DNA of 64,000 nt, from positions 694,189 through 758,188 of the forward strand of contig NZ_LT629731.1 of the NCBI RefSeq assembly GCF_900104575.1. The letters run 5' to 3'. The stretch comes from Bacillus tuaregi (GTDB lineage Bacteria; Bacillota; Bacilli; Bacillales; Cytobacillaceae). The notes beneath the pieces are model-generated. The model did no database searches. It was not told the origin of the DNA and was given only the letters and a program-made list of their open reading frames with translations. The stretch's first letter is position 1. Each line of letters starts with the position of its first letter. The translations under genes were made by a program, and so were the position numbers. Of this stretch, positions 6,734 to 25,761 are shown one piece after another.

Positions 6734-6924
6734 TAACATCATTCAGCAAAAGTCTTCCACTTCTACAAGTGGAGGATGAAGGCAAATGGTACTTCGATTC
6801 AGTGGGGGTTCAAACCCCGGCTGAATGAAGTTAAGCCTCCGGCGGATGTCACGGATTTTTTAAGGGAGTTTATCGAGCGAACTCGATAAAAATCCGGACG
6901 CAAATTCGACGGGCGAATTTGATT
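6734..6924 (+). repeat. Multi-hairpin repeat, copy 1
   Basis: About 191 bases. The outer stem TAACATCATTCAGC / GCTGAATGAAGTTA has one mismatch and encloses hairpin A (CTTCCACTT / AAGTGGAGG, loop CTAC, one G-U pair) and hairpin B (GGGG / CCCC around TTCAAA). Downstream are a nested stem, CGGATT / AATCCG around TTTATCGAG / CTCGATAAA, and a terminal hairpin, AAATTCG / CGAATTT. No open frame uses it. It lies between fliT and hpf. Confidence 0.9.
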
Positions 6925-7005
6925 TGCCTATCAGCCCTGTTATTCCTGCTATTCTACAAAAATGTCACTTTTTCGACATATTTTTAAAAAAATAACTGAT
7001 TTAGC

Positions 7006-7032
7006 AGGAGATTGGAAGGGCAACATAGAAAT
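7006..7032 (+). promoter_or_regulatory. Candidate SigH-type promoter of hpf
   Basis: AGGAGAT at 7006-7012, 12 bases, then ATAGAAAT at 7025-7032. This resembles the SigH consensus (AGGA-A/T-A/T-T, 11-12 bases, GAAT). B. subtilis hpf (yvyD) is driven by SigB and SigH. A TATAAT at 7081-7086 is an alternative SigA -10 without a good -35. Confidence 0.35.
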
Positions 7033-7169
7033 ATAATCCTATAAGAAATTAAAAACACACACAACGGCAATTTCTAAGGTTATAATACTGATAAAGGTAG
7101 GAATAAAACGCTTACCTTTACAAATAACTTTGGCATTGCCGAAAGTGAAAGAAAAGGAGGAGTTCACTT

Positions 7170-7721
7170 ATGAACTACAACATTCGTGGTGAAAACATTG
7201 AGGTAACTCCAGCGATAAGAGAGTATGTTGAGAAGAAAATCAGCCGTCTTGAAAAATACTTTACAGAGACACCTAAAGCAAACGTAAATGTTAACCTAAA
7301 AGTATACAATGATAAAAAGGCAAAGGTTGAAGTTACCATTCCAATGCAAAACCTAGTGTTACGTGCCGAGGAAGTAAATGAAGACATGTATGCCGGAATT
7401 GACCTCATTACTGACAAGCTTGAGCGCCAAATCCGTAAACATAAAACAAAGGTAAACCGTAAATTCCGTGAAAAGGGCGGAATTAATACATTATTTAATG
7501 TAACGACTGAACCAGGTGAGCCAGTCGTTGAGGACGACAATGAGCTTGAGGTTGTTCGTCAAAAAAGCTTTGACTTAAAACCAATGGACAACGAAGAAGC
7601 GATTCTTCAAATGAACATGCTTGGTCACAGCTTCTACGTCTTCACAAATGCTGAAACAAACCGTACAAACGTTGTGTACAAGCGTAAAGACGGACGTTAT
7701 GGCTTAATCGAAGCTCATTAA
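7170..7721 (+). CDS. hpf: Long-form ribosome hibernation promoting factor
   Basis: 183 residues. The N-terminal S30AE/HPF domain (about 1-100) begins MNYNIRGENIEVTPAIREYV and binds the decoding region of the 30S subunit. A linker (about 100-125) is followed by the C-terminal dimerisation domain (DLKPMDNEEAILQMNMLGHS onward), which pairs two ribosomes into inactive 100S dimers. The length matches the long HPF of Firmicutes. The start follows AAAGGAGGAG. It is monocistronic: a terminator follows, and secA has its own leader. Confidence 0.97.
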   Translation: MNYNIRGENIEVTPAIREYVEKKISRLEKYFTETPKANVNVNLKVYNDKKAKVEVTIPMQNLVLRAEEVNEDMYAGIDLITDKLERQIRKHKTKVNRKFREKGGINTLFNVTTEPGEPVVEDDNELEVVRQKSFDLKPMDNEEAILQMNMLGHSFYVFTNAETNRTNVVYKRKDGRYGLIEAH

Positions 7722-7760
7722 GACTCGAAGGATAAGTGAAATCCGATTCTAAGAACTTAC

Positions 7761-7794
7761 AACGCAGCTCTTCCAAACAAGGGCTGCGTTTTCC
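7761..7794 (+). terminator. Terminator after hpf
   Basis: AACGCAGC and GCTGCGTT form an 8-bp stem around a 14-base loop, followed by TTCCT. The T run is short. Confidence 0.7.
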
Positions 7795-7807
7795 TATCTT
7801 CAATGAG

Positions 7808-7836
7808 GCTAGCGAAGTGCCTGGAACGAAATCAAC
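7808..7836 (+). repeat. Remnant of the GC-rich repeat
   Basis: GCGAAGTGCCTGGAACGAA then ATCAAC repeats the right end of the element at 6506-6680 almost exactly. The rest of the element is missing. Confidence 0.65.
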
Positions 7837-7914
7837 TACAACATTAACCCCAAACCATCTATCCTAAATCAGCCAAGACATATTTCTTCATCTGTAATAT
7901 CCATCTTGCATAAG

Positions 7915-7943
7915 TTGTCACTATCCAATGGAAGTGGTAAGAT
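7915..7943 (+). promoter_or_regulatory. Candidate SigA promoter of secA
   Basis: TTGTCA at 7915-7920, a 17-base spacer, TAAGAT at 7938-7943. Transcription would start near 7950, leaving a leader of about 215 bases before secA. Confidence 0.55.
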
Positions 7944-7972
7944 AATGAAGGAAATTAGCGGTTTTTATTGGG

Positions 7973-8004
7973 AGGATTCGGTATCTAAAAAGCGAATCTT
8001 TTTT
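7973..8004 (+). terminator. Possible attenuator in the secA leader
   Basis: AGGATTCG (7973-7980) pairs with CGAATCTT (7993-8000; one G-U pair) and is followed by a T run. It lies only about 25 bases after the predicted start of transcription and upstream of secA. An alternative pairing of CGGTTTTTA (about 7959-7967) with TAAAAAGCG (about 7986-7994) would exclude it. It could therefore be a regulated terminator, or simply stop read-through from hpf. The leader also has hairpins at about 8046-8063 (GGCGG/CCGCC) and 8110-8139 (GCAC/GTGC). Confidence 0.45.
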
Positions 8005-8165
8005 CATTCAAATAAAAAAGTTAAACAACAGGTCTATGAAGGAAGCAGGCGGATCCAACACCGCCGTTGCATAAAGGAAGCAGGAGTTCCAATACAATGC
8101 TTTCTAAATGGAAGTAACAGCACCAACCCCGTGCTTCCTCATGAAACAAATAAAGGAGCGTTTGT

Positions 8166-10676
8166 ATGGCTGGGATTTTAAGTAAAGTATTTGACCCGAA
8201 TAAGCGGGAGTTGAAACGCCTCACGAAAATGACGGAGAAGGTTGTGGCTCTTGCGTCTGATATGGAAAAGCTTTCGGATGACGAGCTGCGCGGCAAGACA
8301 GAGGAATTCAAGGCTCGTTATCAGGGCGGAGAATCCCTTGATGATTTATTATATGAAGCGTTTGCTGTTGTGCGTGAAGGAGCCAAACGGGTTCTTGGCA
8401 TGTTTCCATATCCTGTTCAAATCATGGGAGGGATTTCCCTTCATGAAGGAAATATCTCTGAAATGAAAACAGGGGAAGGGAAGACGTTAACGTCAACCAT
8501 GCCTGTTTACTTAAATGCCATAACAGGAAAAGGCGTTCACGTCGTAACCGTCAACGAATATTTGGCAAGCCGAGATGCCAGCGAAATGGGCCAGCTCTAT
8601 ACATTCCTTGGACTGACAGTGGGATTAAACCTGAACAGTCTTTCAAAGGAAGACAAACAGGCCGCCTATGCCTGTGATATCACCTATAGCACTAATAATG
8701 AGCTGGGCTTCGATTATTTACGTGATAACATGGTTCTGTATAAAGAGCAAAAGGTACAGCGTCCGCTGCATTTTGCCGTGATTGACGAGGTCGACTCGAT
8801 TCTGATTGATGAGGCTCGTACGCCGTTAATTATTTCCGGCTCTGCACAGAAATCAACGCAGCTATACATTCAAGCCAATGCGTTTGTCCGCACACTTGTG
8901 AAGGAAGAGGATTTTACCTATGATGAAAAAACAAAAGGGGTCCAATTAACTGAGAGCGGGATGACAAAGGCTGAACGTGCTTTTGGGATTGAGAACCTGT
9001 TTGATATTCGTCATGTTGCGCTTAACCACCATATTACCCAAGCGCTAAAGGCTCATTCTAGCATGCACCGTGATGTTGACTATGTCGTGCAGGACGGAGA
9101 AATTATTATTGTTGACCAATTTACCGGTCGTCTCATGAAGGGGCGTCGTTATAGTGATGGTCTGCACCAGGCGATTGAAGCAAAGGAAGCCCTTGAAATT
9201 CAAAATGAGAGCATGACCCTTGCGACGATTACCTTCCAGAACTATTTCCGGATGTATGAAAAATTGTCAGGTATGACAGGTACAGCCAAAACAGAGGAAG
9301 AGGAATTCCGTAACATTTATAATATGAACGTTATTGTGATTCCAACGAACCTGCCGATTGCTCGTGATGACAGAGCCGATTTAATCTATGCCAGCATGGA
9401 CGGGAAATTCCGTGCTGTTGTGGAGGATATTGCTGAGCGTCATCAAAATGGTCAGCCTGTCCTTGTAGGTACGGTTGCAATTGAAACGTCAGAGCTGATT
9501 TCCCGCTATTTAACGAAAAAAGGGATTAAGCATAACGTCCTTAACGCGAAGAACCATGAGCGTGAAGCAGAAATCATTCTTAATGCCGGACAGCCTGGTG
9601 TCGTTACGATTGCGACTAATATGGCTGGTCGTGGTACAGACATTAAGCTTGGTGAAGGTGTGAAGGAGGCTGGCGGTCTTGCTGTAATCGGAACAGAGCG
9701 CCATGAGAGCCGTCGGATTGATAACCAGCTACGTGGACGTTCAGGCCGTCAAGGAGACCCTGGTGTCACACAGTTCTATCTTTCCATGGAAGATGAATTG
9801 ATGCGCCGCTTTGGCTCTGACAATATGAAGGCGATGATGGAAAAGCTGGGCATGGATGATACCCAGCCAATTCAAAGCAAAATGGTGTCAAAAGCGGTTG
9901 AATCTGCGCAAAGACGAGTGGAAGGGAACAACTTTGATGCCCGGAAGCAGCTTTTACAATATGATGATGTCCTGCGTCAGCAGCGTGAAATTATTTACGC
10001 TCAGCGTAATGATGTGTTAGAATCAGAAAATCTCCGCAGTATTGTCGAGAATATGATTCAAGCCGCCTTATCACGGAATGTAGCGATTCATCTGACAAGC
10101 GGAGACAATCCGGAGGATAAGGATTACCAAGCACTCTTAGATTATATCAACGGTAATCTTTTAGCAGAGGGCGATATCACACTGGATGATCTTCATGGCA
10201 AGGACAGCCAGGAAATTATCGAGTTCGTATTAGCAAAGGTACAAGGTAAATATAATGCAAAAGAAGAACAGCTGGGTGAAGCGCAAATGCGTGAGTTTGA
10301 AAAGGTCATTGTTCTAAGAGCGGTTGATTCGAAATGGATGGATCATATCGACACAATGGACCAGCTGCGTCAGGGAATTCATTTGCGTGCCTACGGTCAG
10401 GTCAATCCGCTTCGTGAATACCAGCAGGAAGGCTTTGCAATGTTCGAGGCCATGGTTGAAGCGATTGAAGAAGATGTGGCGAAGTATGTGATGAAGGCAG
10501 AAATTCGCAACAACCTTCAGCGTGAGGAGGTTGCCAAGGGGCAGGCTGTCAATCCGAAGGAAGACGGAGAAGTCAAGAAAAAGCCGGTTGTGAAAAAGAA
10601 TATCATCAAGCGTAATGATCCGTGCCCATGCGGCAGCGGTAAAAAATATAAAAATTGTCATGGATTGTTGGAGTAG
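8166..10676 (+). CDS. secA: Preprotein translocase ATPase SecA
   Basis: 836 residues, full length. SecA drives proteins through SecYEG using ATP. Walker A is MKTGEGKT near residue 100, the DEAD-type box is [16 protein letters not shown], and the second nucleotide-binding fold carries GRGTDIKL and [13 protein letters not shown]. The C-terminal zinc motif [14 protein letters not shown] is intact and binds SecB-like partners or phospholipids. The start ATG follows AAAGGAGCG. A strong terminator and a repeat copy separate it from prfB, although in B. subtilis secA and prfB are close neighbours. Confidence 0.99.
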
Positions 10677-10700
10677 TCCAGTCCATCCATGATGTTGCTG

Positions 10701-10746
10701 CATAACAAAGTCTATTGTGAATAGACTTTGTTATGTCTGTTTTTTG
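10701..10746 (+). terminator. Terminator after secA
   Basis: A perfect 16-bp stem, CATAACAAAGTCTATT with its complement, around a 3-base loop (GTG), followed by TCTGTTTTTTGG. Confidence 0.9.
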
Positions 10747-10756
10747 GGTGTCTACT

Positions 10757-10947
10757 TAACTTCATTCAGCGAAAGTCCTCCACTTCTACAAGTGGAGGAT
10801 GAAGGCAAATGGTACTTAGATTCAGTGGGGTTCAAACCCCGGCTGAATGAAGTTAGGCCTCCGGCGGATGTCACGGATTTTTTAAAGGTAGTTTATCGAG
10901 CGAGCTCGATAAAAATCCGGACGCAAATTCGACGGGCGAATTTGATT
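10757..10947 (+). repeat. Multi-hairpin repeat, copy 2
   Basis: This copy has a perfect 15-bp outer stem (TTAACTTCATTCAGC from 10756), hairpin A (CCTCCACTT / AAGTGGAGG), hairpin B, the nested CGGATT / AATCCG stem and the terminal AAATTCG hairpin. It ends 24 bases before the prfB start codon, so it could form part of the prfB leader RNA. Confidence 0.92.
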
Positions 10948-10971
10948 AACTATTGTTTCGAGGTGAAGGTA

Positions 10972-12073
10972 ATGGAATTAGCGGAGATTCGTAATGAATT
11001 AGAAAAAACAGCTAAAAAATTAGCGGACTTTAGGGGGTCTCTTTGACTTAGAGAACAAAGAGGCGCGTATTGCCGAGCTGGATGAGGTGATGCTTCAGCC
11101 GGGATTTTGGGATGATCAGCAGCAGGCACAGGGTGTTATCAATGAATCCAATGCCTTAAAGGATCAGGTCAATGAGTTTCATGGTCTTTATGAAATTTAT
11201 GAAAATCTGGAGCTGACCTATGAGCTTGTGAAAGAAGAGCCGGATGATGAACTTCAAGCGGAATTAGAAGATGAAATTGGGACACTTGCGGAGCGCCTGG
11301 CACAATTTGAGCTACAGCTTCTGTTAAGTGAGCCATATGATAAAAATAATGCGATTCTCGAGCTTCACCCTGGTGCGGGCGGTACAGAATCACAGGACTG
11401 GGGCTCCCAGCTTTTACGTATGTATACACGTTGGGCTGAGAAAAAGGGCTTTAAGGTGGAAACGCTCGATTATCTGCCTGGTGATGAGGCTGGAATTAAG
11501 AGTGTCACGCTTGCGATTAAAGGTCACAACGCCTATGGCTATTTAAAGGCTGAAAAAGGTGTACACCGTCTCGTGCGAATTTCACCGTTTGATGCTTCAG
11601 GTCGTCGCCATACATCGTTTGTTTCATGTGAAGTGATGCCTGAGTTCAATGATGATATTGAAATTGATGTTCGGACAGAGGATTTGAAGGTGGACACGTA
11701 TCGTGCCAGCGGTGCCGGCGGTCAGCATATCAATAAAACAGAATCCGCGATTCGGATTACCCATCTTCCAACAGGCATTGTCGTAACCTGTCAATCGGAG
11801 CGTTCACAGATTAAAAACCGTGAGTCAGCGATGAAAATGCTGAAATCAAAGCTGTATCAGCTGGAAATTGATAAAAAGGAAGAGCAGCTGGCTGAAATCC
11901 GTGGCGAGCAAAAGGATATCGGCTGGGGCAGCCAAATCCGTTCCTACGTTTTCCATCCGTATTCGATGGTAAAAGATCACCGCACCAACACAGAAATTGG
12001 AAATGTGAATGCCGTCATGGATGGCGATATTGATGAATTTATCAACGCTTATCTCCGTTCGAAGATTTCCTAA
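10972..12073 (+). CDS. prfB: Peptide chain release factor 2 (programmed +1 frameshift)
   Basis: Release factor 2 ends translation at UGA and UAA. The gene is read in two frames. Codons 1-24 run from ATG 10972 to CTT 11041-11043. An in-frame TGA at 11044 is bypassed by a +1 shift, and reading resumes at GAC 11045, giving about 366 residues. The stop-codon recognition motif SPF ([15 protein letters not shown]) and the catalytic GGQ ([12 protein letters not shown]) are present. The start is preceded by GAGGTGAAGG. The frame is also open upstream through the repeat (from 10717), but that part is not coding. A terminator follows. Confidence 0.98.
11032..11047 (+). promoter_or_regulatory. prfB programmed frameshift site
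   Basis: The classical RF2 recoding signal: an internal Shine-Dalgarno-like AGGGGG at 11032-11037, then TCT, the slippery CTT, TGA and C. Low RF2 lets ribosomes slip +1 at CTT, giving autoregulation. Confidence 0.97.
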
Positions 12074-12117
12074 TTATTAATTGGTTTGTAATATTTGGTA
12101 ATATTATCGTAATCAAA

Positions 12118-12156
12118 CAGACCTTTGTCCATGGGGAGGACGAAGGTCTGTTTTTA
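12118..12156 (+). terminator. Terminator after prfB
   Basis: CAGACCTTTGTCC pairs with GGACGAAGGTCTG (one G-U pair), then TTTTTATTATT. Confidence 0.85.
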
Positions 12157-12322
12157 TTATTAATAGATTTTATTAATAATATAATTTTTATAAAAATAAT
12201 GAAGTGGATATTAAACTTCTTTACTAGTTAAAAATAATTCACAAATTTGAAACAAATGACACAAAACCTTCATACTATTGGACTTTTCGCAAAAAGCAAC
12301 CATAAAAGAAGATTAGAAATAG

Positions 12323-12350
12323 TTTTAAAAGAAAATGATTATGCTATAAT
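12323..12350 (+). promoter_or_regulatory. Candidate cccB promoter
   Basis: Extended -10 TGCTATAAT (12342-12350), with a weak -35 TTTTAA 16 bases upstream. The remaining 12157-12320 is AT-rich and shows no gene. Confidence 0.5.
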
Positions 12351-12389
12351 ATATCTGAATTATGTAGTCATTTCAAAGGGGGATCTAGC

Positions 12390-12740
12390 ATGAAGTTTAA
12401 GGGGAAACTAGCAGCCCTGTTAGTGGGTTCTGCACTTGTACTTGCAGCCTGTGGCGGCGGGGATGAAGAAGCATCAACAAGCACATCTAATGATAGTGCT
12501 TCAACCACAACGGATACAGCAAGTGCGAACGGTGAGAAAATTTTCAATCAAAAGTGCTCAAGCTGTCATGGGATGAATCTTGAAGGTGGAGTGGGACCTG
12601 AATTAACAACAGTCGGCTCCAAAATGTCACAGGAAGACATTGAAACCTTAGTTAAGGATGGAAAAGGCGCCATGCCTCCAGGCTTAATTGATGGTGAAGA
12701 TTTAACGGCTGTTGCAGAATGGCTGGCAGCTAAACAGTAA
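12390..12740 (+). CDS. cccB: Cytochrome c551, membrane-anchored lipoprotein
   Basis: 116 residues. The lipoprotein signal peptide ends in LAAC, so the cysteine would be lipidated and the protein anchored outside the membrane. A serine/threonine-rich linker (about 25-48) leads to a small class I cytochrome c domain with the haem motif CSSCH and an axial methionine in the GAMPPG segment. It carries electrons to the terminal oxidase. The start follows AAAGGGGG. The position between prfB and ftsE matches B. subtilis cccB. No clear terminator follows. Confidence 0.95.
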
Positions 12741-12859
12741 TTTTTGTCTATCTAAGGGGGCCGATCACGCTAAGATGTGTTCACATTGTCTGTGTGAGAA
12801 GCTACCCTTATTTCGGGTTGTTCATCTCCTTCTTTTTAGCTACTAAATGGGAATATCTT

Positions 12860-13052
12860 TAACTTCATTCAGCAGAAGTCCTCCACTTCTACAAGTGGGG
12901 GATGAATGCAAATGGTTCTTCGATTCAGTGGGGGTTCAAACCCCAGCTGAATGAAGTTAAGCCTCCGGCGGATGTCACGGATTTTTTAAAGGTAGTTTAT
13001 CGAGCGAGCTCGATAAAAATCCGGACGCAAATTCGACGGGGCGAATTTGATT
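12860..13052 (+). repeat. Multi-hairpin repeat, copy 3
   Basis: About 193 bases with all five stems. In hairpin A the right arm is AAGTGGGGG against CCTCCACTT, so a G-U pair replaces an A-U pair without breaking the stem. It lies between cccB and ftsE. The rest of the 12741-13321 gap is AT-rich and without a gene. Confidence 0.92.
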
Positions 13053-13223
13053 AAAACACTCCTTTTATCCTGTACATTGCATAAATTACCAACCTATCTT
13101 CTTCTCCTCATAAAAATCCATGATGTGTCTTTATTTTACAAGCATAAACCTCCGTTAAACGACATTTTTTTCACCGTGAAAAGAAACTGTAATATTTTTA
13201 ACACTATTTTTGCTGGATTATGA

Positions 13224-13232
13224 TGTTATAAT
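13224..13232 (+). promoter_or_regulatory. Candidate ftsEX extended -10
   Basis: TGTTATAAT, an extended -10, about 90 bases before ftsE. No good -35 is visible. Confidence 0.4.
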
Positions 13233-13321
13233 GGTGTGTGTGAGAAAAACATAAATATTTTGTAGAAAAATGTCGACAGACTTTTCTGTTTTTTTCAACA
13301 CAAAAAACTTTGGGTGATAAC

Positions 13322-14008
13322 ATGATAGAAATGGAAGATGTTTTTAAGAAGTATCCTAACGGGGTAGTTGCAGCCAATGGGATTACCGTTTCCATTAAGC
13401 AAGGTGAATTTGTCTATGTCGTAGGACCTAGTGGTGCAGGTAAATCTACGTTTATAAAAATGATGTATCGCGAAGAAGTTCCAACAAGAGGAACGATTAT
13501 GATTAATGGTGTCAATCTGGAAAAGTTAAAAGCAAACAAGGTTCCGATGCTGCGCCGTCAAATTGGCGTTGTATTCCAGGACTTCAAGCTGCTTCCGACC
13601 TTGACGGTTTTTGAAAATGTCGCCTTTGCGATGGAGGTTATTGAAGCCCAGCCGGAGGACATTAAGCGGCGGGTGATGGAAGTGTTGACACTTGTAGGCT
13701 TAAAGCATAAGGCGAGGATGCTGCCATCAGAGCTATCGGGTGGGGAGCAGCAGCGTGTCTCGATTGCCCGATCGATTGTGAACAAGCCTAAGGTGGTCAT
13801 TGCCGATGAGCCGACAGGAAACCTGGACCCGGATACATCCTGGGAGATTATGAAAATTTTTGAAGAAATTAATATGAGTGGGACAACCGTTGTCATGGCC
13901 ACACATAATCGTGATATTGTTAACGCGATTAAGCATCGGGTCATTGCCATCGAAAATGGTATGATTGCCCGTGACGAACTGAGAGGTGATTACGGTTATG
14001 AAGGCTAG
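13322..14008 (+). CDS. ftsE: Cell division ABC transporter ATPase FtsE
   Basis: 228 residues. Walker A is GPSGAGKST, the ABC signature LSGGEQQRVSIARSIV, Walker B VVIADEPTGNLDP, and a switch histidine lies in MATHNRD. FtsE binds ATP and, with FtsX, transmits a cytoplasmic signal across the membrane to activate cell wall hydrolases. The frame is open from TTG 13310, but ATG 13322 gives the usual MIEMEDVFKKYPNG start. It overlaps ftsX by 11 bases. Confidence 0.98.
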   Translation: MIEMEDVFKKYPNGVVAANGITVSIKQGEFVYVVGPSGAGKSTFIKMMYREEVPTRGTIMINGVNLEKLKANKVPMLRRQIGVVFQDFKLLPTLTVFENVAFAMEVIEAQPEDIKRRVMEVLTLVGLKHKARMLPSELSGGEQQRVSIARSIVNKPKVVIADEPTGNLDPDTSWEIMKIFEEINMSGTTVVMATHNRDIVNAIKHRVIAIENGMIARDELRGDYGYEG

Positions 14009-14891
14009 TACACTTCGCCGCCATGTGAGAGAAAGCTTTAAGAGCTTAGGAAGAAATGGTTGGATGATGTTTGCATCGGTCAGTGCAGTCACCATCACGC
14101 TTCTCTTGGTTGGGGTCTTTTTCGTTATTATGCTGAACCTTAATAATGTGGCAAAAAGTATCGAAGAGGACGTTGAAATCCGTGTCCATATTGATGTTGC
14201 GGCAACAAAAGAAGAACAGACGGTATTAAAGAGTGAAATAGAAAAGCTGCCCGAGGTGGAAAGTGTTAAATTTTCCCCTAAGGAAGACGAGCTTGATAAT
14301 CTGATTACCAGCTTAGGTGAAGAGGGAGAAGCCTTTACATTATTTGAACAGGATAATCCGCTTAACGACGTATTTGTCGTAAAAACGAAAAACCCAACAG
14401 ATACCATGAAAGCGGCTAAGCAGATTGAAAAAATGCACTTCGCTTCAAAGGTAAAATATGGACAGGGCAGTGTTGAGAAGATTTTTGAAGTCACGAGCAT
14501 CAGTCGAAACATTGGTCTTATTCTAGTCATCGGACTCTTGTTTACGGCCATGTTCTTAATCTCCAATACGATAAAGATTACAATTTTTGCAAGAAGAAAA
14601 GAAATCGAAATTATGAAGCTTGTAGGAGCGACAAACGGATTTATCCGCTGGCCGTTTTTCCTTGAAGGACTATGGCTTGGATTGCTAGGCTCTATTGTCC
14701 CCATTATTGTTGTTGGAATCAGCTATTACTATGCCCACGGCTATTTATCACAGAAGCTTACAGGGAATTTCATTCAACTATTAGAATTTAGCCCGTTTAT
14801 TTATCAGATATCGGCCCTGTTAATTCTATTAGGGGCACTAATTGGGGTTTGGGGAAGCCTGATGTCTGTTCGAAAGTTCTTAAAAGTATAA
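13998..14891 (+). CDS. ftsX: Cell division protein FtsX
   Basis: 297 residues. A short cytoplasmic N-terminus (MKASTLRRHVRESFKSLGRN) precedes membrane segment 1 (about 25-45), a large external domain (about 50-165), and three further membrane segments near residues 170-190, 215-240 and 265-285. It is the membrane partner of FtsE; the external loop contacts a hydrolase or its coiled-coil activator. The start at ATG 13998 inside the ftsE end follows GAGAGGTGA and matches other FtsX proteins. A coiled-coil M23 hydrolase gene lies directly downstream. Confidence 0.97.
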   Translation: MKASTLRRHVRESFKSLGRNGWMMFASVSAVTITLLLVGVFFVIMLNLNNVAKSIEEDVEIRVHIDVAATKEEQTVLKSEIEKLPEVESVKFSPKEDELDNLITSLGEEGEAFTLFEQDNPLNDVFVVKTKNPTDTMKAAKQIEKMHFASKVKYGQGSVEKIFEVTSISRNIGLILVIGLLFTAMFLISNTIKITIFARRKEIEIMKLVGATNGFIRWPFFLEGLWLGLLGSIVPIIVVGISYYYAHGYLSQKLTGNFIQLLEFSPFIYQISALLILLGALIGVWGSLMSVRKFLKV

Positions 14892-14902
14892 GAATGTATG
14901 AA

Positions 14903-14966
14903 GGGAACAAGCAGGACTTGTTCCTCCCTACATATTAAATCCATCTCACTATTGATGGATTTTACT
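14903..14966 (+). terminator. Hairpins after ftsX
   Basis: Two stems: GGGAACAAG / CTTGTTCC (14903-14924), and AAATCCATC / GATGGATTT (14937-14962) followed by TACTATCTT. The T runs are modest, so termination may be partial and the M23 gene may be partly cotranscribed. Confidence 0.55.
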
Positions 14967-16695: not shown

Positions 16696-18189
16696 ATGGA
16701 GATGAACCGGAAATGGTTAGCGTTTCTTATGGCAGGCTCCCTGCTGACAGGGGCCGGCGGGACATATGCAGCCATCATGTTTAAAATGGAAACGATACCG
16801 CTCAAGCAGGAGCAACAGACTAAATTAGAATCGGATGAACAGGGACAGCAGTCCATGCCTAACCAGACGATTGGGGAAGGCAATATGGATAAAATTGTCC
16901 AGGCCTACCAGCTCATCAAAGGAAATTATATCGAGGAAGTGAAGGAGGAGCAATTGGTCGAGGGTGCCATTCAGGGGATGCTCACGACCTTGGATGACCC
17001 TTATTCCGTGTACATGGACAAGGAGACCGCTAGGCAGTTCAGCCAGTCGTTGGATTCATCCTTTGAAGGAATTGGCGCAGAGGTGAGCATGGTCGACGGG
17101 AAAATTGTCATTGTGTCACCATTTAAGGATTCACCGGCAGAAAAGGCAGGAATCAAACCCAATGATCAAATCCTCAAGGTGGACGGTCAAAGTGTGGAAG
17201 GGCTTGATTTATATGAGGCAACATTAAAAATCCGTGGGGAAAAAGGTACAACAGTCAAGCTGCAGATTATGAGACAAGGGTTAAAGGATCCGATAACGGT
17301 CCAAGTTAAGCGTGATGAAATCCCGCAAATTACTGTTTATTCGAAGGTCAAAAAGCAGGAGGAGCAATCTGTCGGATATATCGAAATTACGTCTTTTTCA
17401 GAGGAGACGGCTGCTGAATTTAAAAAGCAGCTGAAGCAGCTTGAGAAAAAGAATATCGATGGACTTGTGATTGATGTACGTGGCAATCCGGGTGGTTTCC
17501 TCGAAAGCGTGCAGGAAATTCTGAAGGAATTTGTCACGAAGGAAAAGCCGTATATGCAGATTGAAAAGCGTAATGGTGAAAGAGAAAAGTATTTTACGAC
17601 GTTAAATAAGGAAAAGACTTATCCGGTTGCGGTATTGATTGATAAAGGCAGCGCCTCAGCCTCGGAAATTATGGCAGGTGCTCTCCAGGAGGCAGAAGGG
17701 TTTACCTTAATCGGCGAGAAGACCTTTGGCAAAGGGACTGTGCAGCAGGCCGTTCCAATGGGCGATGGCAGCAATATAAAGCTGACCCTGTTTAAATGGC
17801 TGACACCGGAGGGAAATTGGATCCACAAAAAAGGCATCAAGCCGGATTTACAGGTCACCCAGACCGAGCTTTATCATACCCATCCATTGCAGCTGACAGA
17901 GCCATTAAAAAAGGATATGAACAATGAGCAGGTGAAAAATGCGCAGCAAATCCTCCTAAGCCTTGGCTATGAAACGGGCAGAAAGGATGGCTATTTTAAC
18001 AAAGCGACCGAAACGGCCGTGAAGGCATTCCAGCAGGAAAATAAGCTGAGCGTAACCGGCATGATTGATGACAAAACGTCTGCTGCCCTTGAGCAGAAGG
18101 TGATGAAGGAATTGAAAAAGGAAAGCAATGACCTCCAATTACAGGCAGCGTTAAAATTTATCGCCCAAGCGGCAAAAAGAGAACCATAA
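16696..18189 (+). CDS. ctpB: C-terminal processing protease CtpB-like (S41)
   Basis: 497 residues. One N-terminal membrane anchor or signal (WLAFLMAGSLLTGAGGTYAA), a PDZ domain (about 100-195) that gates the active site, and an S41 protease core with the catalytic serine in GSASASEIMAG and lysine in FGKGTVQ. A C-terminal peptidoglycan-binding repeat follows (about 410-475). It acts outside the membrane; in B. subtilis CtpB cleaves SpoIVFA during sporulation signalling. The order ftsX-ctpB-minJ matches B. subtilis. ATG 16696 and ATG 16702 are both possible starts. Confidence 0.93.
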   Translation: MEMNRKWLAFLMAGSLLTGAGGTYAAIMFKMETIPLKQEQQTKLESDEQGQQSMPNQTIGEGNMDKIVQAYQLIKGNYIEEVKEEQLVEGAIQGMLTTLDDPYSVYMDKETARQFSQSLDSSFEGIGAEVSMVDGKIVIVSPFKDSPAEKAGIKPNDQILKVDGQSVEGLDLYEATLKIRGEKGTTVKLQIMRQGLKDPITVQVKRDEIPQITVYSKVKKQEEQSVGYIEITSFSEETAAEFKKQLKQLEKKNIDGLVIDVRGNPGGFLESVQEILKEFVTKEKPYMQIEKRNGEREKYFTTLNKEKTYPVAVLIDKGSASASEIMAGALQEAEGFTLIGEKTFGKGTVQQAVPMGDGSNIKLTLFKWLTPEGNWIHKKGIKPDLQVTQTELYHTHPLQLTEPLKKDMNNEQVKNAQQILLSLGYETGRKDGYFNKATETAVKAFQQENKLSVTGMIDDKTSAALEQKVMKELKKESNDLQLQAALKFIAQAAKREP

Positions 18190-18407
18190 CAGGTTCATCC
18201 TATAATCCAAATGGCTGAAATAGGTGCTGAGTCTGGCAATCAAACAGAACTGGGATCAACCCAAATTCCAGCTCCTGCCTTTTGCTAGGTTCAGCGCTTT
18301 TTCGTACACTTTTGTTAACTTTTCAGAATATCAGAAACATGTCGAAGCCATAAGCAGTACAATAATCATAGAGTATAAAAAAACATCTCATGAAGGAGAT
18401 GGACAAA

Positions 18408-18986
18408 ATGGCTGAAAAGAATAACCGCCATAGACAATATGAAACAATAACCGGATGGCTGTTCATTGTCCTCCTTACAATAGCGACTGCAGTGAAGTTC
18501 CTAAATGGAAGCCTCGCAAAGGGAACGATGGGAATGATGACCATTGTGTTGTTAGCCGGCATCCTATTGTATCAGAGCCGTTCACCACGTCCTTTTCCAG
18601 TCGCCTTTACCATCATCATCTACAGCTTTACCTATATAGCCGTTGGACTTGGAACATTAGGCGGATTCTATGCAATCCATCATTTTGACGATGTTTTGCA
18701 CTTTTTATCAGGAGTTTGGATTGGCTATGGAAGCTTGATTCTACTTCAAATCTTGGCAGGTGAGGACATGGCCGCACGTCTCCCAAAAGGGTTTGTCACC
18801 CTTTATATGATTAGCTTCGCCCTAGCGGCGGCGGGTCTTTGGGAGCTGTTTGAATTTGCTGGTGACAAATGGTTTCATATGACCGCCCAGGGCAGGAATC
18901 ACGATGATACGATGTTCGACATGATCAATGGACTCACAGGAGGCACTGTAGCGGCACTCATCTATTGGCGAAAGCAGCGCAGCTGA
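18408..18986 (+). CDS. YjdF/DUF2238-like multipass membrane protein
   Basis: 192 residues with about five to six hydrophobic segments. Conserved-looking motifs are HHFDDVLHFLSG, LWELFEFAGDKWF and a DDTMFDMINGLTGG loop. This pattern of histidine and aspartate residues at membrane edges resembles the YjdF/DUF2238 family, whose function is unknown. ATG 18408 follows AAGGAGA at 8 bases; the upstream ATG at 18390 has none. It sits alone between ctpB and minJ. The 218-base gap before it has no strong promoter. Confidence 0.6.
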   Translation: MAEKNNRHRQYETITGWLFIVLLTIATAVKFLNGSLAKGTMGMMTIVLLAGILLYQSRSPRPFPVAFTIIIYSFTYIAVGLGTLGGFYAIHHFDDVLHFLSGVWIGYGSLILLQILAGEDMAARLPKGFVTLYMISFALAAAGLWELFEFAGDKWFHMTAQGRNHDDTMFDMINGLTGGTVAALIYWRKQRS

Positions 18987-19142
18987 GTACTCATCATACT
19001 TCAATCAACATCTTTAATAGAATTCTAAAATGTGTCAATACGCCTAATTTACTGTCACGCTTTAATTTGATAGAATAATATAATAGAAATGATAGAGATT
19101 CTGAATTTCTAAATGAATGATCAATAGAGGTTGGTGGCAGTA

Positions 19143-20384
19143 TTGGCACTAGATTGGGGCATCGAGTTGTTAAAAGGAGTAGAAAGGCTCTTTCTACATC
19201 CGCTGTTTTATTATTTGTTGGTCGTTGCAGCTATGTTGGGAATCTCAAGAGTAAAGCGGGAACGCAAGCAATTCCATGTTCGTGTGAAAAATGCTTATTA
19301 TGAATTACGACAGCTTTTACCGCTCGGATTCATCCTTGGTTTAAGCCTGTCTGTTGTAACCATTGGCGCCGGACTGGTGATTCCAATGGAAACGATTATT
19401 TTCGTTGCATTATTTACGTTTTTATGGAGCTTGACCACTAATTTTCGCTTTTTATCTCCGGTTTACACTGTTGGTTTTGCCTTTTTCACTACGCTGTTTT
19501 TTCTTAGTAAAAAATGGTCTCTTCCCCTTATTGAAAGTCATACGCCTGAGTGGAATCCATCCATTCTTCCTTCGATTGCCGCCTTGCTTGGTTTATTAAT
19601 CGTGGCAGAGGGTATTTTTATTTTTCGAAATGGAAGGAAGGGCACGTCCCCTAAGCTGATCAAAGGGAAACGGGGAATGCGTGTCGGCGTACATGAAGTG
19701 AAGCGTCTATGGATGCTGCCTTTATTTTTGATTATTCCAGGTGAAGCCTTACAGGCACCCTTTGAATGGTGGCCGGTCTTTTCAGTCGGCGGTCAAACGT
19801 ATTCCATTCTGCTTGTTCCGTTTGCCATCGGATACTACCAGCAGATTCAAGGGAAGCTGCCGGTCATGGCGGTTAAGCAGACCGGAAAAAAGATCATCCT
19901 ATTCGGGGTTGTCATTACGATTCTCTCAGCAGCAGGATATTGGTATCCGCTTGCAGCGATTGTCGTTACCGCACTGGCGATGATTGGTCGCGAAATCTTA
20001 TCGATGCGCCAGCGTATCGTCGAGGACAATCTCCCGTTTTATTTTTCAATGCGAAATCAAGGGGTCATGATCCTTGGTGTTATACCGGATTCACCGGCGG
20101 AGAAAATGGGTCTTCAGGTTGGTGAGGTTGTGTCAAAGGTGAATGGCGTGACGGTTGCAGACGAGGAAAGCTTCTATGATGCGATGCAAAAAAACCGGGC
20201 CCACTGTAAGCTAGAGGTGCTTGATGTAAACGATCAGATCCGCTTCGTGCAAAGAGCGCTCTATGAGGGTGACCATTACCAGCTCGGTATCCTCTTTGTT
20301 CAGGATGAGAAAAATTGGGCTGAGGAAGATAGGGTTATGAAACAGCAAAACGATCCGACAGTTATTAATCATTTCCCAGAATAA
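19143..20384 (+). CDS. minJ: Topological determinant of division MinJ
   Basis: About 413 residues. The N-terminal half has some six to eight membrane segments, and a C-terminal PDZ domain (about 295-380) contains GVMILGVIPDSPAEKMGL. In Bacillus, MinJ bridges DivIVA and MinD so that septa do not form at the poles. The frame is open from TTG 19131, but TTG 19143 (MALDWGIELLKG) fits MinJ N-termini better and has GGTGG upstream. Its place after ctpB supports the call. A strong terminator follows. Confidence 0.88.
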   Translation: MALDWGIELLKGVERLFLHPLFYYLLVVAAMLGISRVKRERKQFHVRVKNAYYELRQLLPLGFILGLSLSVVTIGAGLVIPMETIIFVALFTFLWSLTTNFRFLSPVYTVGFAFFTTLFFLSKKWSLPLIESHTPEWNPSILPSIAALLGLLIVAEGIFIFRNGRKGTSPKLIKGKRGMRVGVHEVKRLWMLPLFLIIPGEALQAPFEWWPVFSVGGQTYSILLVPFAIGYYQQIQGKLPVMAVKQTGKKIILFGVVITILSAAGYWYPLAAIVVTALAMIGREILSMRQRIVEDNLPFYFSMRNQGVMILGVIPDSPAEKMGLQVGEVVSKVNGVTVADEESFYDAMQKNRAHCKLEVLDVNDQIRFVQRALYEGDHYQLGILFVQDEKNWAEEDRVMKQQNDPTVINHFPE

Positions 20385-20428
20385 CAACCATGCATGATGA
20401 ATGACTGAAAAATATTGATTACAAAAGA

Positions 20429-20477
20429 AAAAACCACTTGTTAGATATCCAATCGATATCCATCAAGTGGTTTTTAT
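20429..20477 (+). terminator. Terminator after minJ
   Basis: Outer arms AAAACCACTTG / CAAGTGGTTTT enclose AGATATC / GATATC. A T-rich run follows. Confidence 0.85.
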
Positions 20478-20526
20478 TTTTGTGAAGTTATTGCATTTTT
20501 TTCGTAATGTAAAAAAATATTCTATT

Positions 20527-20699
20527 TAACTTCATTCAGCAAATGCTTTTTGTAAGGCAAATGGTACTTCGATTCAGTGGGGGATCAAACTCCAGCTGAA
20601 TGAAGTTAAGCCTCCGGCGAGTCTTGCGATTTTTTAAAGGTAGTTTATCGAGCGAGCTCGATAAAAATCCGGACGCAAATTCGACGGGCGAATTTGATT
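20527..20699 (+). repeat. Multi-hairpin repeat, copy 4 (internal deletion)
   Basis: About 173 bases. The outer 15-bp stem is perfect and the right half is intact, but hairpin A is replaced by AAATGCTTTTTGTA. Copy 5 has the same 14 bases at the same place, so copies 4 and 5 form a subgroup. Hairpin B is GGGGATCAAACTCC, which keeps pairing through a G-U pair. Confidence 0.9.
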
Positions 20700-20850
20700 G
20701 CTTCTTTAAATAAATTATTTTCATTAATTTTTAAAAATTTATATGGATTAATCTATATAATATTGACTAGAAAATGCCTGTCATGTAAGCCTTTACCATC
20801 CTAATATTAGGCATATGGCATCATTTTTCTTCTATTCATCTCGAAATTAG

Positions 20851-20922
20851 ATTGATTTTATCCAAAATCAATATTAGAAAGATTACCGATGTTGTAATAT
20901 GATGAATATATCGAAAATCAAT
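20851..20922 (+). promoter_or_regulatory. Inverted repeat upstream of gltA
   Basis: ATTGATTTT (20851-20859) and AAAATCAAT (20864-20872) form a perfect 9-bp dyad with a 4-base centre. AAAATCAAT recurs at 20914-20922, exactly 50 bases on. This is a possible operator for a LysR-type regulator such as GltC; no match to the B. subtilis GltC box was seen, so the binder is unknown. Confidence 0.4.
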
Positions 20923-21012
20923 ACCAATTTGAGAACAGTTTGAAACAACCTATCTTGATATTGATATTAATGCTAGGTCATCATATTTTTATGCAAAGGG
21001 TGAAGTGAATTG

Positions 21013-24000
21013 ATGAATCAAAGTAAAATTCCGGTAAAACAAGGTCTTTATAATCCAAGCTTCGAAAAGGATGCCTGCGGAATTGGCTTTATTGCCAATG
21101 TAAAAGGACAGAAAGAGCATAATATTGTTCAACAAGGTCTAACGATGCTGGCACGGATGGAGCATCGAGGCGGTCAAGGAAGTGACCTGGATACAGGTGA
21201 TGGGGCAGGGATTATGACGCAAATTCCTCATGCTTTCTTCGCAAACATAAACCCCCAATTGAACACATATGGAGAAGGAAATTACGGAGTTGGAATGGTT
21301 TTCCTTCCGAGAAACGCTGAACAACGTGAGCAATGTGAAGCCGTATTGGCGAACTTGATTAAAGCGGAAGGTCAGGTTGTACTAGGCTGGAGAACGGTAC
21401 CAACCAATGATCGTGCTATCGGAGTGAAGGCAAAGGCGAGCCAACCCATGATTCGTCAGTTATTCATCGGAAAATCAAAGGACATTCAGACAGAGCTCGA
21501 TTTTGACCGAAAGCTATATGTCATCAGGAAACGAGCTGAGAAAGAGGTCCGTGAAAATCAGCTTGCCAAGGATTCTACCTTTTATTTTGCGAGTCTTTCG
21601 ACAAAGACAATCGTCTACAAAGGGATGCTAACCCCTGAACAAATGGACCAATACTATTTGGATTTACAGGATGAAAGCTTTACATCTGCCTTTACCTTAG
21701 TTCATTCACGTTATAGCACCAATACCTTCCCGAGCTGGGAAAGAGCCCATCCCAATCGTTATTTGATTCATAATGGAGAAATTAATACCGTAAAAGGGAA
21801 TATCAATTGGATGAAAGCACGCGAAAATATGTTTGAAAATTCTGTATTTGGTAAGAGCGGCCATGAAGTGCTTCCGGTTATTGATGAAACCGGCAGTGAC
21901 TCCTCCTCCTTTGACAATGCCTTGGAATTTCTCCACCTATCCGGTCGTTCCTTAGCACATGCTGCGATGATGATGGTACCGGAGCCATGGGAAAAGGATG
22001 ATGTAATGGATGAAAGCTTAAAGGCCTTTTATGAGTATCACAGCCATGTAATGGAGCCATGGGATGGTCCTGCTGCCTTTGCCTTTACAGATGGGAAGCA
22101 AATTGGTGCGATGCTCGATCGAAATGGTCTTCGTCCTGCCCGCTATTATGTGACCGCAGATGAACAGATCATCTTTGCCTCTGAAGCAGGCGTACTCGAT
22201 GTGGATGAAAGCCGCATTCTTGAAAAAGGAAGATTAAGTCCAGGGAATCTGCTACTGGTTGATTTAGAAAAAGGTCGGATCATTCAAAACGATGAAGTGA
22301 AAAAACAGGTGGCCAATCAGGAGCCCTATCGACAATGGCTAAATAATCAAAGCGTTCATATCAATCAATTACCAGAGGGTGGAGACAGTGCGAAGACCGT
22401 AACAGCCAAGCTGAAATCATTTCAGCAAGCACATGGTTTTACACAAGAAGAATTAAATGATCAGCTTCTTCCCATGGCAAGAGACGGAAAGGATCCGATT
22501 GGTTCGATGGGGAGTGATACACCGCTTGCCGTACTCTCGAATCATTCACAGCTGCTATACAACTATTTCCAGCAGGTGTTCGCACAGGTAACGAACCCGC
22601 CGATTGATGCGATGCGTGAACAATATGTCACGTCAACCTCTACATTATTAGGTCCTGAAGGGAATCTTCTGCAGCTAACGGAAGCAAGCTGTCAGCGAAT
22701 CCGGCTTGATGGACCGATTTTGACAAATGAAGATTTGCATAAGCTAAAGAATTTGAATGGAGTACCCTTCCAAGCTAGAACCTTCTCGATGCTGTTTGAT
22801 GTGAAAAAGGGAGAGCAGGGTCTCGAGTCAGCCTTAACCCAGCTGTTCCAAGCTGTAGAAGCAGGCATTCATGAAGGAGTATCATTGGTTATTTTATCAG
22901 ACAAGGGCTTGAGTCAAGAGGCAGCCGCTATTCCAGCCTTGCTTGCAGTCAGTGGACTACACCAGCATTTAGTCCGTCAAGGTACACGGACAAAGGTGAG
23001 TATCCTTGTGGAAACCGGTGAAGCGAGAGATGTCCATCAATTATGTATGTTAATTGGCTATGGGGCCGATGCCATCCATCCATATCTTGCCTATGCGACC
23101 ATTGAAGACCTATTCGAAAATGGAAAGCTAGGAGAAATAGAGCTTCCACTCGCCATCAACCATTATGTTAAGGCCGTAACAATTGGGATTGTAAAGGTCC
23201 TCTCAAAAATGGGAATTTCAACGATTCAAAGCTATCGGGGAGCCCAAATCTTTGAGGCTGTTGGCATTCATCCGGATGTGATCGAAAAATATTTCACAGG
23301 TACAGCTGTTCAGCTAGGCGGCATAAAGCTTGAAACGATTGCAAAGGAAACGCTGATTCGTCATGAAAAAGCCTTTGGCGATGCTGAGAACGAAGCCCAG
23401 CCACTATTTGTCGGCGGTGATTTCAAATGGCGCAAAGGTGGCGAAGAGCATGCCTACAGTCCCGATATCATTCGCCAGCTAAAAATGGCTTGCCGGGCAA
23501 ATGATTATGAGCAATATAAAGCCTATGCAGAAAAAGCAAACGAATCGAAACTCATCTTTATTCGCGATTTATTTACCTTCAAGGCAAATAGCCCGATTCC
23601 AATTGAAGAGGTTGAATCGGTAGAATCAATCGTTCGCCGCTTTAAAACCGGTGCCATGTCATACGGTTCCTTAAGTCAGGAAGCACATGAAACGATTGCG
23701 ATTGCGATGAATCGTCTTGGAGCGAAAAGCAATAGCGGTGAAGGCGGAGAGCACCCTGATCGTTATCTTCCAGATGAAAATGGCGATCTGCGCCGCAGTG
23801 CCATTAAGCAGGTAGCATCCGCGCGCTTTGGCGTTAACAGCCATTATCTAATGAATGCAGAGGAAATTCAAATCAAAATGGCGCAGGGAGCAAAGCCTGG
23901 GGAAGGCGGACACCTGCCTGGCAGCAAGGTCTATCCGTGGATTGCAGAGGTTCGGGGCTCGACACCAGGAATTGGCTTGATTTCACCGCCACCGCATCAT

Positions 24001-25530
24001 GATATCTACTCGATTGAGGATTTGGCCCAGCTGATTCATGATTTGAAAAATGCTAATCCAAAGGCGAGAATCAGCGTGAAGCTGGTATCTAAGGCAGGGG
24101 TTGGAACGATTGCAGCCGGTGTGGCCAAAGGACTTGCAGATGTTATTTTAATCAGCGGAGCAGACGGTGGAACGGGTGCAGCCCCAAGAACAAGCATTAA
24201 GCATGCCGGTATGCCGTGGGAAATCGGTCTTGCGGAAACGCATCAAACCTTACAATTAAATGGCCTGCGCGATCGGGTTGTCCTTGAAGCAGATGGGAAG
24301 CTGATGACTGGCCGTGATGTCGTCATGGCAGCCATGCTTGGGGCAGAGGAATTTGGTTTCGCCACAGCACCGCTGATTGTTTTAGGCTGTGTCCTTGTTC
24401 GCCAATGTCAAAATGACACTTGCCCAGTTGGGATTGCGACACAAAATCCAGAATTACGTAAGAAATTTCTTGGCAAACCAGAGCATGTGGAGAACTTTAT
24501 GCGCTTTATTGCCCAGGATGTTCGTGAAATCATGGCGAGCTTAGGCATTAGAACGGTCCATGAATTAGTCGGTCGGACTGATTTATTAAGCCAGAGCGAA
24601 AAGGCCAAAACCCATTGGAAAGCGAAGGATTTAGATATTTCGTCTATTTTTTACCAGCCAGAGGGTACAGCAAATGGCGGACTAGGAAATAAACAAAAAC
24701 AAGACCATGGTCTGGAAAAATCACTCGATTCTCGTGAGCTTTTAGCTGTGTGTCAGCCTGCCTTAGAACAGGGACAAAAGGTGGAAGCTAGCTTCCAGAT
24801 TCAAAATATTAATCGAACAGTGGGTACGACATTAGGAAGTGAAATAACCAAACGCTATGGTGCGAAGGGACTGCCAGAGGATACGATTCTGTTGAACTTT
24901 TCAGGAACAGCAGGTCAAAGCTTTGGTGCCTTTATTCCAAACGGACTGACGCTTTCTCTAGAGGGCGAGGCAAATGACTATGTTGGAAAAGGACTATCAG
25001 GCGGAAAAATCATTGTAAAGCCATCTGACAAGTCAGTTTTTGTCGCGGAGGAAAATGTGATGATTGGTAATGTCGCATTTTATGGTGGAACAGCGGGAGA
25101 AGCCTATATCAACGGTCTTGCTGGTGACCGCTTCTGTGTTAGAAATAGCGGGGTCAACGCAGTAATTGAAGGGGTTGGAAACCATGGCTGTGAATATATG
25201 ACAGGTGGCCGTGTCGTTGTATTAGGCTCTGTTGGTAAAAACTTTGCTGCTGGGATGACAGGTGGAATCGCCTATGTATATGCAGAGCAATATGCTGAAT
25301 TCCAAACCCATTGCAATCAGGAATTAGTCGATTTAGAGGCTTTAGAGGAAGAGCAGGATATTCATGAGGTACACAGCCTTGTCCAAAACCACTACAACTA
25401 TACAGGCAGTGTGAAGGCCTTCAACATTCTGAACAACTGGAATCAAAACCTTAAGAAGTGGGTGAAGGTGATTCCAAAGGAATATAAGGGAAAGCTTCAA
25501 GCGTTTTCAAGTCAGGCCCTAATGAAATAA
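21013..25530 (+). CDS. gltA: Glutamate synthase large subunit
   Basis: About 1505 residues, full length. It makes two glutamate from glutamine and 2-oxoglutarate. A short propeptide precedes the catalytic cysteine of the class II amidotransferase domain (DACGIGF near residue 22). Next come the central domain, the FMN/synthase domain (residues about 830-1200) and the 3Fe-4S cysteines in GCVLVRQCQNDTCPVG. The C-terminal beta-helix is glycine-rich. ATG 21013 follows AAGGGTGAAG. B. subtilis has gltB (small NADPH subunit) directly downstream; here none is present, so the partner is elsewhere or the enzyme uses ferredoxin. Repeat copy 5 starts four bases after the stop. Confidence 0.98.
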   Translation: MNQSKIPVKQGLYNPSFEKDACGIGFIANVKGQKEHNIVQQGLTMLARMEHRGGQGSDLDTGDGAGIMTQIPHAFFANINPQLNTYGEGNYGVGMVFLPRNAEQREQCEAVLANLIKAEGQVVLGWRTVPTNDRAIGVKAKASQPMIRQLFIGKSKDIQTELDFDRKLYVIRKRAEKEVRENQLAKDSTFYFASLSTKTIVYKGMLTPEQMDQYYLDLQDESFTSAFTLVHSRYSTNTFPSWERAHPNRYLIHNGEINTVKGNINWMKARENMFENSVFGKSGHEVLPVIDETGSDSSSFDNALEFLHLSGRSLAHAAMMMVPEPWEKDDVMDESLKAFYEYHSHVMEPWDGPAAFAFTDGKQIGAMLDRNGLRPARYYVTADEQIIFASEAGVLDVDESRILEKGRLSPGNLLLVDLEKGRIIQNDEVKKQVANQEPYRQWLNNQSVHINQLPEGGDSAKTVTAKLKSFQQAHGFTQEELNDQLLPMARDGKDPIGSMGSDTPLAVLSNHSQLLYNYFQQVFAQVTNPPIDAMREQYVTSTSTLLGPEGNLLQLTEASCQRIRLDGPILTNEDLHKLKNLNGVPFQARTFSMLFDVKKGEQGLESALTQLFQAVEAGIHEGVSLVILSDKGLSQEAAAIPALLAVSGLHQHLVRQGTRTKVSILVETGEARDVHQLCMLIGYGADAIHPYLAYATIEDLFENGKLGEIELPLAINHYVKAVTIGIVKVLSKMGISTIQSYRGAQIFEAVGIHPDVIEKYFTGTAVQLGGIKLETIAKETLIRHEKAFGDAENEAQPLFVGGDFKWRKGGEEHAYSPDIIRQLKMACRANDYEQYKAYAEKANESKLIFIRDLFTFKANSPIPIEEVESVESIVRRFKTGAMSYGSLSQEAHETIAIAMNRLGAKSNSGEGGEHPDRYLPDENGDLRRSAIKQVASARFGVNSHYLMNAEEIQIKMAQGAKPGEGGHLPGSKVYPWIAEVRGSTPGIGLISPPPHHDIYSIEDLAQLIHDLKNANPKARISVKLVSKAGVGTIAAGVAKGLADVILISGADGGTGAAPRTSIKHAGMPWEIGLAETHQTLQLNGLRDRVVLEADGKLMTGRDVVMAAMLGAEEFGFATAPLIVLGCVLVRQCQNDTCPVGIATQNPELRKKFLGKPEHVENFMRFIAQDVREIMASLGIRTVHELVGRTDLLSQSEKAKTHWKAKDLDISSIFYQPEGTANGGLGNKQKQDHGLEKSLDSRELLAVCQPALEQGQKVEASFQIQNINRTVGTTLGSEITKRYGAKGLPEDTILLNFSGTAGQSFGAFIPNGLTLSLEGEANDYVGKGLSGGKIIVKPSDKSVFVAEENVMIGNVAFYGGTAGEAYINGLAGDRFCVRNSGVNAVIEGVGNHGCEYMTGGRVVVLGSVGKNFAAGMTGGIAYVYAEQYAEFQTHCNQELVDLEALEEEQDIHEVHSLVQNHYNYTGSVKAFNILNNWNQNLKKWVKVIPKEYKGKLQAFSSQALMK

Positions 25531-25533
25531 ATT

Positions 25534-25761
25534 TAACTTCATTCAGCAAATGCTTTTTGTACCGAAAGCTTGCGACAGGTACAGAAGTCCTCCACTTCTA
25601 CAAGTGGGGGATGAATGCAAATGGTTCTTCGATTCAGTGGGGGGGGTTAAACCCCGGCTGAATGAAGTTAAGCCTCCGGCGGATGTCACGGATTTTTTAA
25701 GGTAGTTTATCGAGCGAGCTCGATAAAAATCCGGACGCAAATTCGACGGGCGAATTTGATT
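25534..25761 (+). repeat. Multi-hairpin repeat, copy 5 (extended)
   Basis: About 228 bases, the longest copy. Between the left outer arm and hairpin A it carries about 35 extra bases, with their own stem TGTACC / GGTACA. The other stems are intact; hairpin A has the same G-U substitution as copy 3. It begins four bases after the gltA stop and may serve as its transcript end. Confidence 0.9.

Follow-up and report, generated by a model that had tools for sequence, protein, structure and literature searches.

The repeats found in the window, a 64 kb stretch of DNA (C16:694189-758188) from the genome of Bacillus tuaregi (G000; 16 contigs, 4.86 Mb), here indicated as family A, probably work like gene-less, non-autonomous single-strand transposons of the IS200/IS605 (Y1, HUH) type, moved in trans. 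This reading is proposed because the absence of terminal inverted repeats and target-site duplications, the empty sites in related genomes, the end hairpins and the fork-following orientation match the traits of that type: the available text of two papers reports for IS200/IS605 elements no target-site duplication, no terminal inverted repeats, a target tetra- or pentamer, end hairpins and an orientation which follows the fork (PMC7290912, PMC5371812) and recapitulates replication (PMC5371812). A sequence-only reading had hesitated between a mobile element, possibly of this type, and a dispersed structured RNA: the former is supported by the same traits, while for the latter what stands is the conservation of the structure. 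Membership in the IS200/IS605 family is indicated as candidate, because no cognate element carrying both ends was seen among the loci read. With about 200 natural insertions in one genome, fork-coupled single-strand transposition becomes readable statistically.

Family A elements in the window

Five near-complete copies, already located by the sequence-only reading, were recovered by direct-repeat search and word-7 blastn within a few bases of the positions then given. The minor pieces were also found again by blastn: the half copy with E 1e-26, the degenerate piece with E 9e-9 and the tail relic, 22 nt long, with E 0.01. Copies and relics all lie in the same orientation, as had been claimed. 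Their localization is reported in Table 1, along with the structural features of copy 3. Boundaries were corrected: the conserved unit starts from the C of TTTAA/CTTCATTCAGC, that is C(TTCATTCAGC), ends with CGAATTTGAT, and sits 3' of a TTTAA-like pentamer. The extra hairpin of copy 5 is common to other 229-nt copies. The ORF which follows copy 2 is presumably prfB.

Table 1. Family A elements in the window and structural features of the reference copy
Feature	Position	Strand	Source and remarks
Copy 1	6737..6923	+	blastn; TTTAA pentamer 6732-6736; second repeat just upstream, ~6520-6680
Copy 2	10760..10946	+	blastn; pentamer CTTAA, 10755-10759; in the gap before an ORF with RF2-type frameshift motif
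Copy 3 (reference copy)	12863..13051	+	blastn; pentamer 12858-12862
Copy 4, internally shortened	20530..20698	+	blastn
Copy 5, long form with extra hairpin	25537..25760	+	blastn
5' half copy	40713..40786	+	blastn
Degenerate 5' piece	34453..34513	+	direct-repeat search, blastn
Right-end hairpin relic	318..339	+	blastn; weak match
Copy 3, outer stem, 5' arm	12859..12873	+	pairs with 12946-12960; one pair exchanged, C-G/T-A
Copy 3, inner hairpin TCCTCCACTTC..AAGTGGGGGA, after GAAG	12879..12902	+	resembles IS605 end hairpins
Copy 3, mini-hairpin GCC-TCC-GGC, near-invariant	12961..12969	+	follows a TTAA complementary to the target pentamer
Copy 3, middle stem CGGATTTTT..AAAAATCCG, enclosing a TATCGAG/CTCGATA hairpin	12974..13026	+	single-sequence fold
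Copy 3, right-end hairpin CAAATTCG..CGAATTTG	13028..13049	+	ends 2 nt before the 3' end

The repeat just upstream of copy 1 is a GC-rich block (GGAAGGTACGCAGACTCCCGCGGGAGAAGCG...), adjoining the copy. By eye, an end related to this block immediately precedes the L066 copy, and another GC-rich block, similar to it, lies near the L221 copy.

Secondary structure

Folded as single-stranded DNA, copy 3 reaches -46.5 kcal/mol, compared to -21.5 +/- 3.5 in 200 shuffled sequences (z -7.1). Of the 137 sequences representing 179 copies, 62 were aligned and submitted to RNAalifold. The consensus contains the outer stem, the right hairpin and the GCC-TCC-GGC mini-hairpin, but not the middle stem, which is present in the single-sequence fold of copy 3. 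Little covariation is credited (covariation term -0.42; double changes in 4 of 21 pairs). Paired changes were counted at one anchored pair per stem in the copies, related to each other, where the stem motifs could be located (124 and 125 of 179), so that the figures refer to sequences and not to events: the variable pair of the outer stem is C-G in 70, T-A in 41 and otherwise in 13 of 124 copies; that of the middle stem is G-C in 58, A-T in 39, C-G in 6 and otherwise in 22 of 125. The arms of the right hairpin co-vary in a few copies. A hairpin is present near each element end, as indicated by fold, consensus and paired changes.

Most elements range in size from 150 to 290 nt, through gain or loss of inner hairpins; these look dispensable, hence the size variants. 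Longer spans, up to about 630 nt, include insertions of a second family (family B, see below) and perhaps mispaired ends. The long forms found in the congener G003 had suggested a group I intron or IStron, an idea which was discarded: what lengthens them is a family B insertion within family A, and a search for the group I intron core in 8 loci of long or variant form gave no match up to E 5. A coding function was likewise rejected: the L401 copy is open throughout (65 codons), but stops are found in other copies, and Pfam reports 0 families for L401.

Insertion sites

The comparison of orthologous gaps, proposed by the sequence-only reading, revealed empty sites in congeners. Copies 1 and 5 are absent from the corresponding gaps of G002, the former along with its upstream repeat, and copy 2 from those of G002, G001 and G003; in the gap holding copy 3, G002 has a copy of its own, at a different point. 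When the two flanks of a copy are joined, they span the orthologous junction in an alignment for 4 of the 9 copies tried. The cleanest case is a G002 copy preceding a gene which we take to be ftsE-like: both sides align to G000, gapless near the junction. One more spanning alignment, of copy 3 with G003, is 38 nt long and falls in an unrelated place. A TTTAA pentamer is found at the orthologous empty site in none of the four spanning alignments, which compare diverged species. The TTTAA target is likely retained on insertion.

Base preferences at the ends were evaluated on the 96 exact-anchored copies, out of 148. The three bases preceding AACTTC (-3 to -1) are T in 86, 89 and 97% of them, and 76 of the 96 show TTT before AAC, with no strong preference for the base preceding TTT; at the 3' end, CGAATTTGAT, the next base is rarely G (2%). 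No target-site duplication was found in these copies for k = 5-9, and k = 4 gives 0-2 cases, as in shuffled sequences. The two ends do not form a pair of inverted repeats. A MITE moved by a DDE transposase, which small size, lack of coding capacity and high copy number would fit, is contradicted by both these features, and can hardly be entertained. In one case the insertion point may be compared with an uninterrupted sequence: the copy nested in the family B repeat L197 follows TAAAA, where the uninterrupted family B copy L264 reads GTAAAATAAAAGAAG.

Orientation and replication fork

Of the 88 copies located in G000, 78 are oriented with the replication fork (p 3e-14); this count covers the located copies among the fetched loci, not all 194 genomic places (see below), and favours the first half of C16, because tail matches were ordered by mismatch and then by position. 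Copies follow the fork in 44 of 47 cases when both neighbours are directed along it, in 25 of 28 when the neighbours point opposite ways and in 8 of 12 when both are directed against it; one copy of the 88 was not classed. Gene direction was assigned by a longest-ORF rule, and we placed the fork switch at 2.15 and 2.20 Mb, from orientation and skew. In G003, 18 of 20 copies follow the fork.

A first sample (40 scored of 285 first-look candidates, ranked by similarity) gave 42 rows, from which a 41-nt opposite-strand partial match, lying inside another copy, was left out; five rows are on C15. One switch near 2.1 Mb accounts for 35 of the 36 chromosome copies (19/1 before it, 0/16 after it, p 2e-9). 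The sign of GC skew changes between about 2.1 and 2.8 Mb, its mean being positive before 2.1 Mb and negative after 2.8 Mb; skew is weak in the first 500 kb (0.012), and the single locus at 2.12-2.8 Mb is positive.

Fork direction therefore accounts for orientation beyond gene direction, as shown by the 25 of 28 copies which follow the fork between neighbours of opposite direction; some gene effect may add. The same cases bear on the idea of a structured RNA, dispersed in the genome and functional in the cell. This would explain the conserved structure with its paired changes, and draws support from the Rfam RNA contained in the sister family B; yet such conservation is equally predicted by the single-stranded DNA model, orientation follows the fork where neighbouring genes disagree, presence differs between congeners at comparable sites of the window (copies 1, 2 and 5), degenerate copies exist and Rfam gives no match. 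We consider a cellular RNA very improbable.

According to the single-strand transposition here preferred, a Y1 transposase supplied in trans would recognize, on the template of the lagging strand, the outer stem as left-end hairpin and CAAATTCG/CGAATTTG as right-end hairpin, and cut after TTTAA and after GAT; the element would be excised as a single-stranded DNA circle, and pasted 3' of a new TTTAA-like site on single-stranded DNA at forks. The TTAA found at the base of the GCCTCCGGC hairpin, near-invariant in the alignment of 62 copies, may guide the choice of the target, possibly by pairing with it.

Copy number and distribution

The presence of more copies outside the window, on which the sequence-only reading depended, was verified in G000, in its congeners and in other genera. 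A 32-nt tail matches 194 places in G000 with up to 3 mismatches (reversed-pattern control, 0), and a 25-nt core pattern 176 places with up to 2. The core pattern is found in 9 of 193 genomes of the bacterial family, namely the five included from the genus (G000, 176 places; G001, 66; G002, 50; G003, 22; G004, 13) and four of one other genus (G118, 75; G092, 11; G122, 5; G113, 3). Since the G001 tails differ, a 34-nt tail pattern finds 0 places there, compared to 66 with the core pattern. Among the matches listed for genomes of named species are Bacillus sp. V3B, Niallia endozanthoxylica, Cytobacillus depressus, Siminovitchia terrae, Fredinandcohnia onubensis, Sporosarcina limicola, Schinkia azotoformans and an Alkalihalobacillus macyae MAG. 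Family A is also carried by L348, from a record named Arthrobacter beigongshangensis, possibly a mislabelled or contaminated assembly. Plasmids, phages and viral contigs gave no match.

The absence of a named family, implied by the sequence-only reading, agrees with the Rfam search: at gathering score only a tRNA is found in the window and nothing for family A, a single miRNA match over copies 2-3 being below threshold. No description of the repeat was found in the open-licence literature.

Short, palindrome-ended derivatives of IS200/IS605 are often moved by a transposase acting in trans, according to the available text of PMC7290912. Such ends-only derivatives (PATEs, palindrome-associated transposable elements) are, like family A, short with palindromic ends. 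Family A differs by its copy number (about 190 tail matches, compared to one PATE-like copy reported in the available text of PMC7290912), by the long outer stem with modular inner hairpins, and in having no parental element with the two ends among the loci read.

Search for the driving enzyme

The window had been described as devoid of transposases: this holds for the Y1 transposase and TnpB Pfam families, with 0 matches within its 64 kb. The G000 genome contains 11 TnpB and 5 Y1 matches. An IS605 element lies at C16:417-419 kb, with relatives in G002 and G004. The sequence of these elements starts with TTTAACGG (or TTTAACGGC) and contains GAAGTCTCCCA...TGGGAGATGAAT, resembling the family A left end; the latter has TTTAAC, GAAG with a hairpin, and GATGAAT in common with the IS605 of L072/L145/L146. 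The right end is unlike that of the local IS605. The resemblance to TnpB omega-RNA scaffolds, earlier suggested, reduces to one inner hairpin which, by eye, resembles the IS605 end hairpins of the same genome. A complete element carrying tnpA or tnpB along with matching ends on both sides, which the sequence-only reading recommended looking for, was not found among the loci read, nor did a Y1 family search, which listed loci of genomes other than G118, G092, G113 and G122, give a cognate TnpA element that shares the family A ends. A TnpA of the L072 type is not supported as sole driver, as it has no match in G118 (75 copies), G092 or G122.

RAYT-like genes of the L075/L076/L242 clades are present in G000, G001, G002, G118 and G092; in G003 and G004 only a longer, 265-aa clade was found, and the search in G113 and G122 gave none. 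A RAYT (TnpA-REP), an enzyme related to the Y1 transposases, might then move family A as a REPIN- or BIME-like repeat: the smaller-clade genes occur in the genomes with 176, 66, 50, 75 and 11 places, not in those with 22, 13, 5 and 3, and one RAYT of G000 has a full family A copy about 200 nt upstream. Against this, the RAYT query also matches 15 of the 32 genomes of the second genus which lack family A, some with smaller-clade genes, so that an L075-type RAYT was dropped as the main reading; only one full copy and one tail piece accompany the 22 Y1 loci compared; and five RAYT-like loci (L076, L158, L241, L242, L249) are flanked, by eye, by other palindromes, GGGGGACTGTCCCC or GGTGTCAGRCACC. 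In this flank comparison, row L160 holds a neighbour gene, identical to L226. REPIN/BIME are also hairpin repeats ascribed to Y1 enzymes, in the available text of PMC2817692, but family A is not built as two inverted REPs: it features one long outer stem and an unrelated right hairpin, and RAYT presence does not track it. We hold this origin unlikely. Neither the local IS605 TnpA nor the RAYT-like enzymes track family A across genomes.

The GGGGGACTGTCCCC and GGTGTCAGRCACC palindromes are candidate REPs of Firmicutes RAYTs. Among the TnpB copies, L004, L005, L007, L008 and L009 share the same 3' part; before it come an unreadable residue (X) and, beyond this, unrelated sequence, perhaps because of assembly joins or masked stretches.

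Sister family B and related repeats

Family B is a repeat of about 200 nt, based on TTAACGGGCAGTAAGA...CACTGATGGAAGTTTCACTTTA and found in 29 places (L256:1501-1709 among them) of several Bacillaceae genomes. TTTAT lies within 12 nt of the left anchor in 23 of the 29, and CACTTTAT closes 20. The Bacillaceae-1 RNA (RF01690) is found at gathering score in 16 of the 17 family B loci scanned, the exception being L143: this RNA is a module of family B, whose left-end design resembles that of family A, while RF01690 was not found in family A by the Rfam search of the window. The two families are also nested, B inside A at L187, L193 and L199, A inside B at L197.

The TTTAT close to the family B left end recalls the bcr1-bcr3 repeats of the Bacillus cereus group which, in the available text of PMC6542083 and PMC3446304, are intergenic, mobile repeats of 100-400 bp, with up to 130 copies for bcr1 and a mobility tied to TTTAT; size, localization and high copy number are similar in family A. 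Family A could then be a bcr-like repeat, spread without a Y1 enzyme by a mechanism resembling site-specific recombination, or by another one. TTTAA, however, and not TTTAT, is found beside family A, which occurs in other genera, the comparison being by description and not by sequence; and the lack of duplication, the strong fork orientation and the IS605-like left end favour single-stranded DNA transposition. A bcr-like spread without Y1 enzyme is, in our opinion, decidedly unlikely.

Single-strand transposition would instead offer a testable mechanism for bcr-type repeats, whose mobility was called site-specific-recombination-like. As one joint proposal, which we advance tentatively, families A and B may be two branches of a class of high-copy, structured, gene-less elements transposing as single-stranded DNA and hosted by Bacillaceae, to which bcr1-3, with their TTTAT, may also belong; the target would be read by a guide inside the element, the TTAA which precedes the mini-hairpin, and the Bacillaceae-1 RNA would be a module of a transposon and not a cellular sRNA. 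The findings suggest that an RNA family listed in Rfam belongs to a mobile element.

Finally, a family-B-like match is present on a plasmid of Pseudalkalibacillus hwajinpoensis (NZ_CP156675.1:67661-68004), covering 52% of the query with 83% identity.
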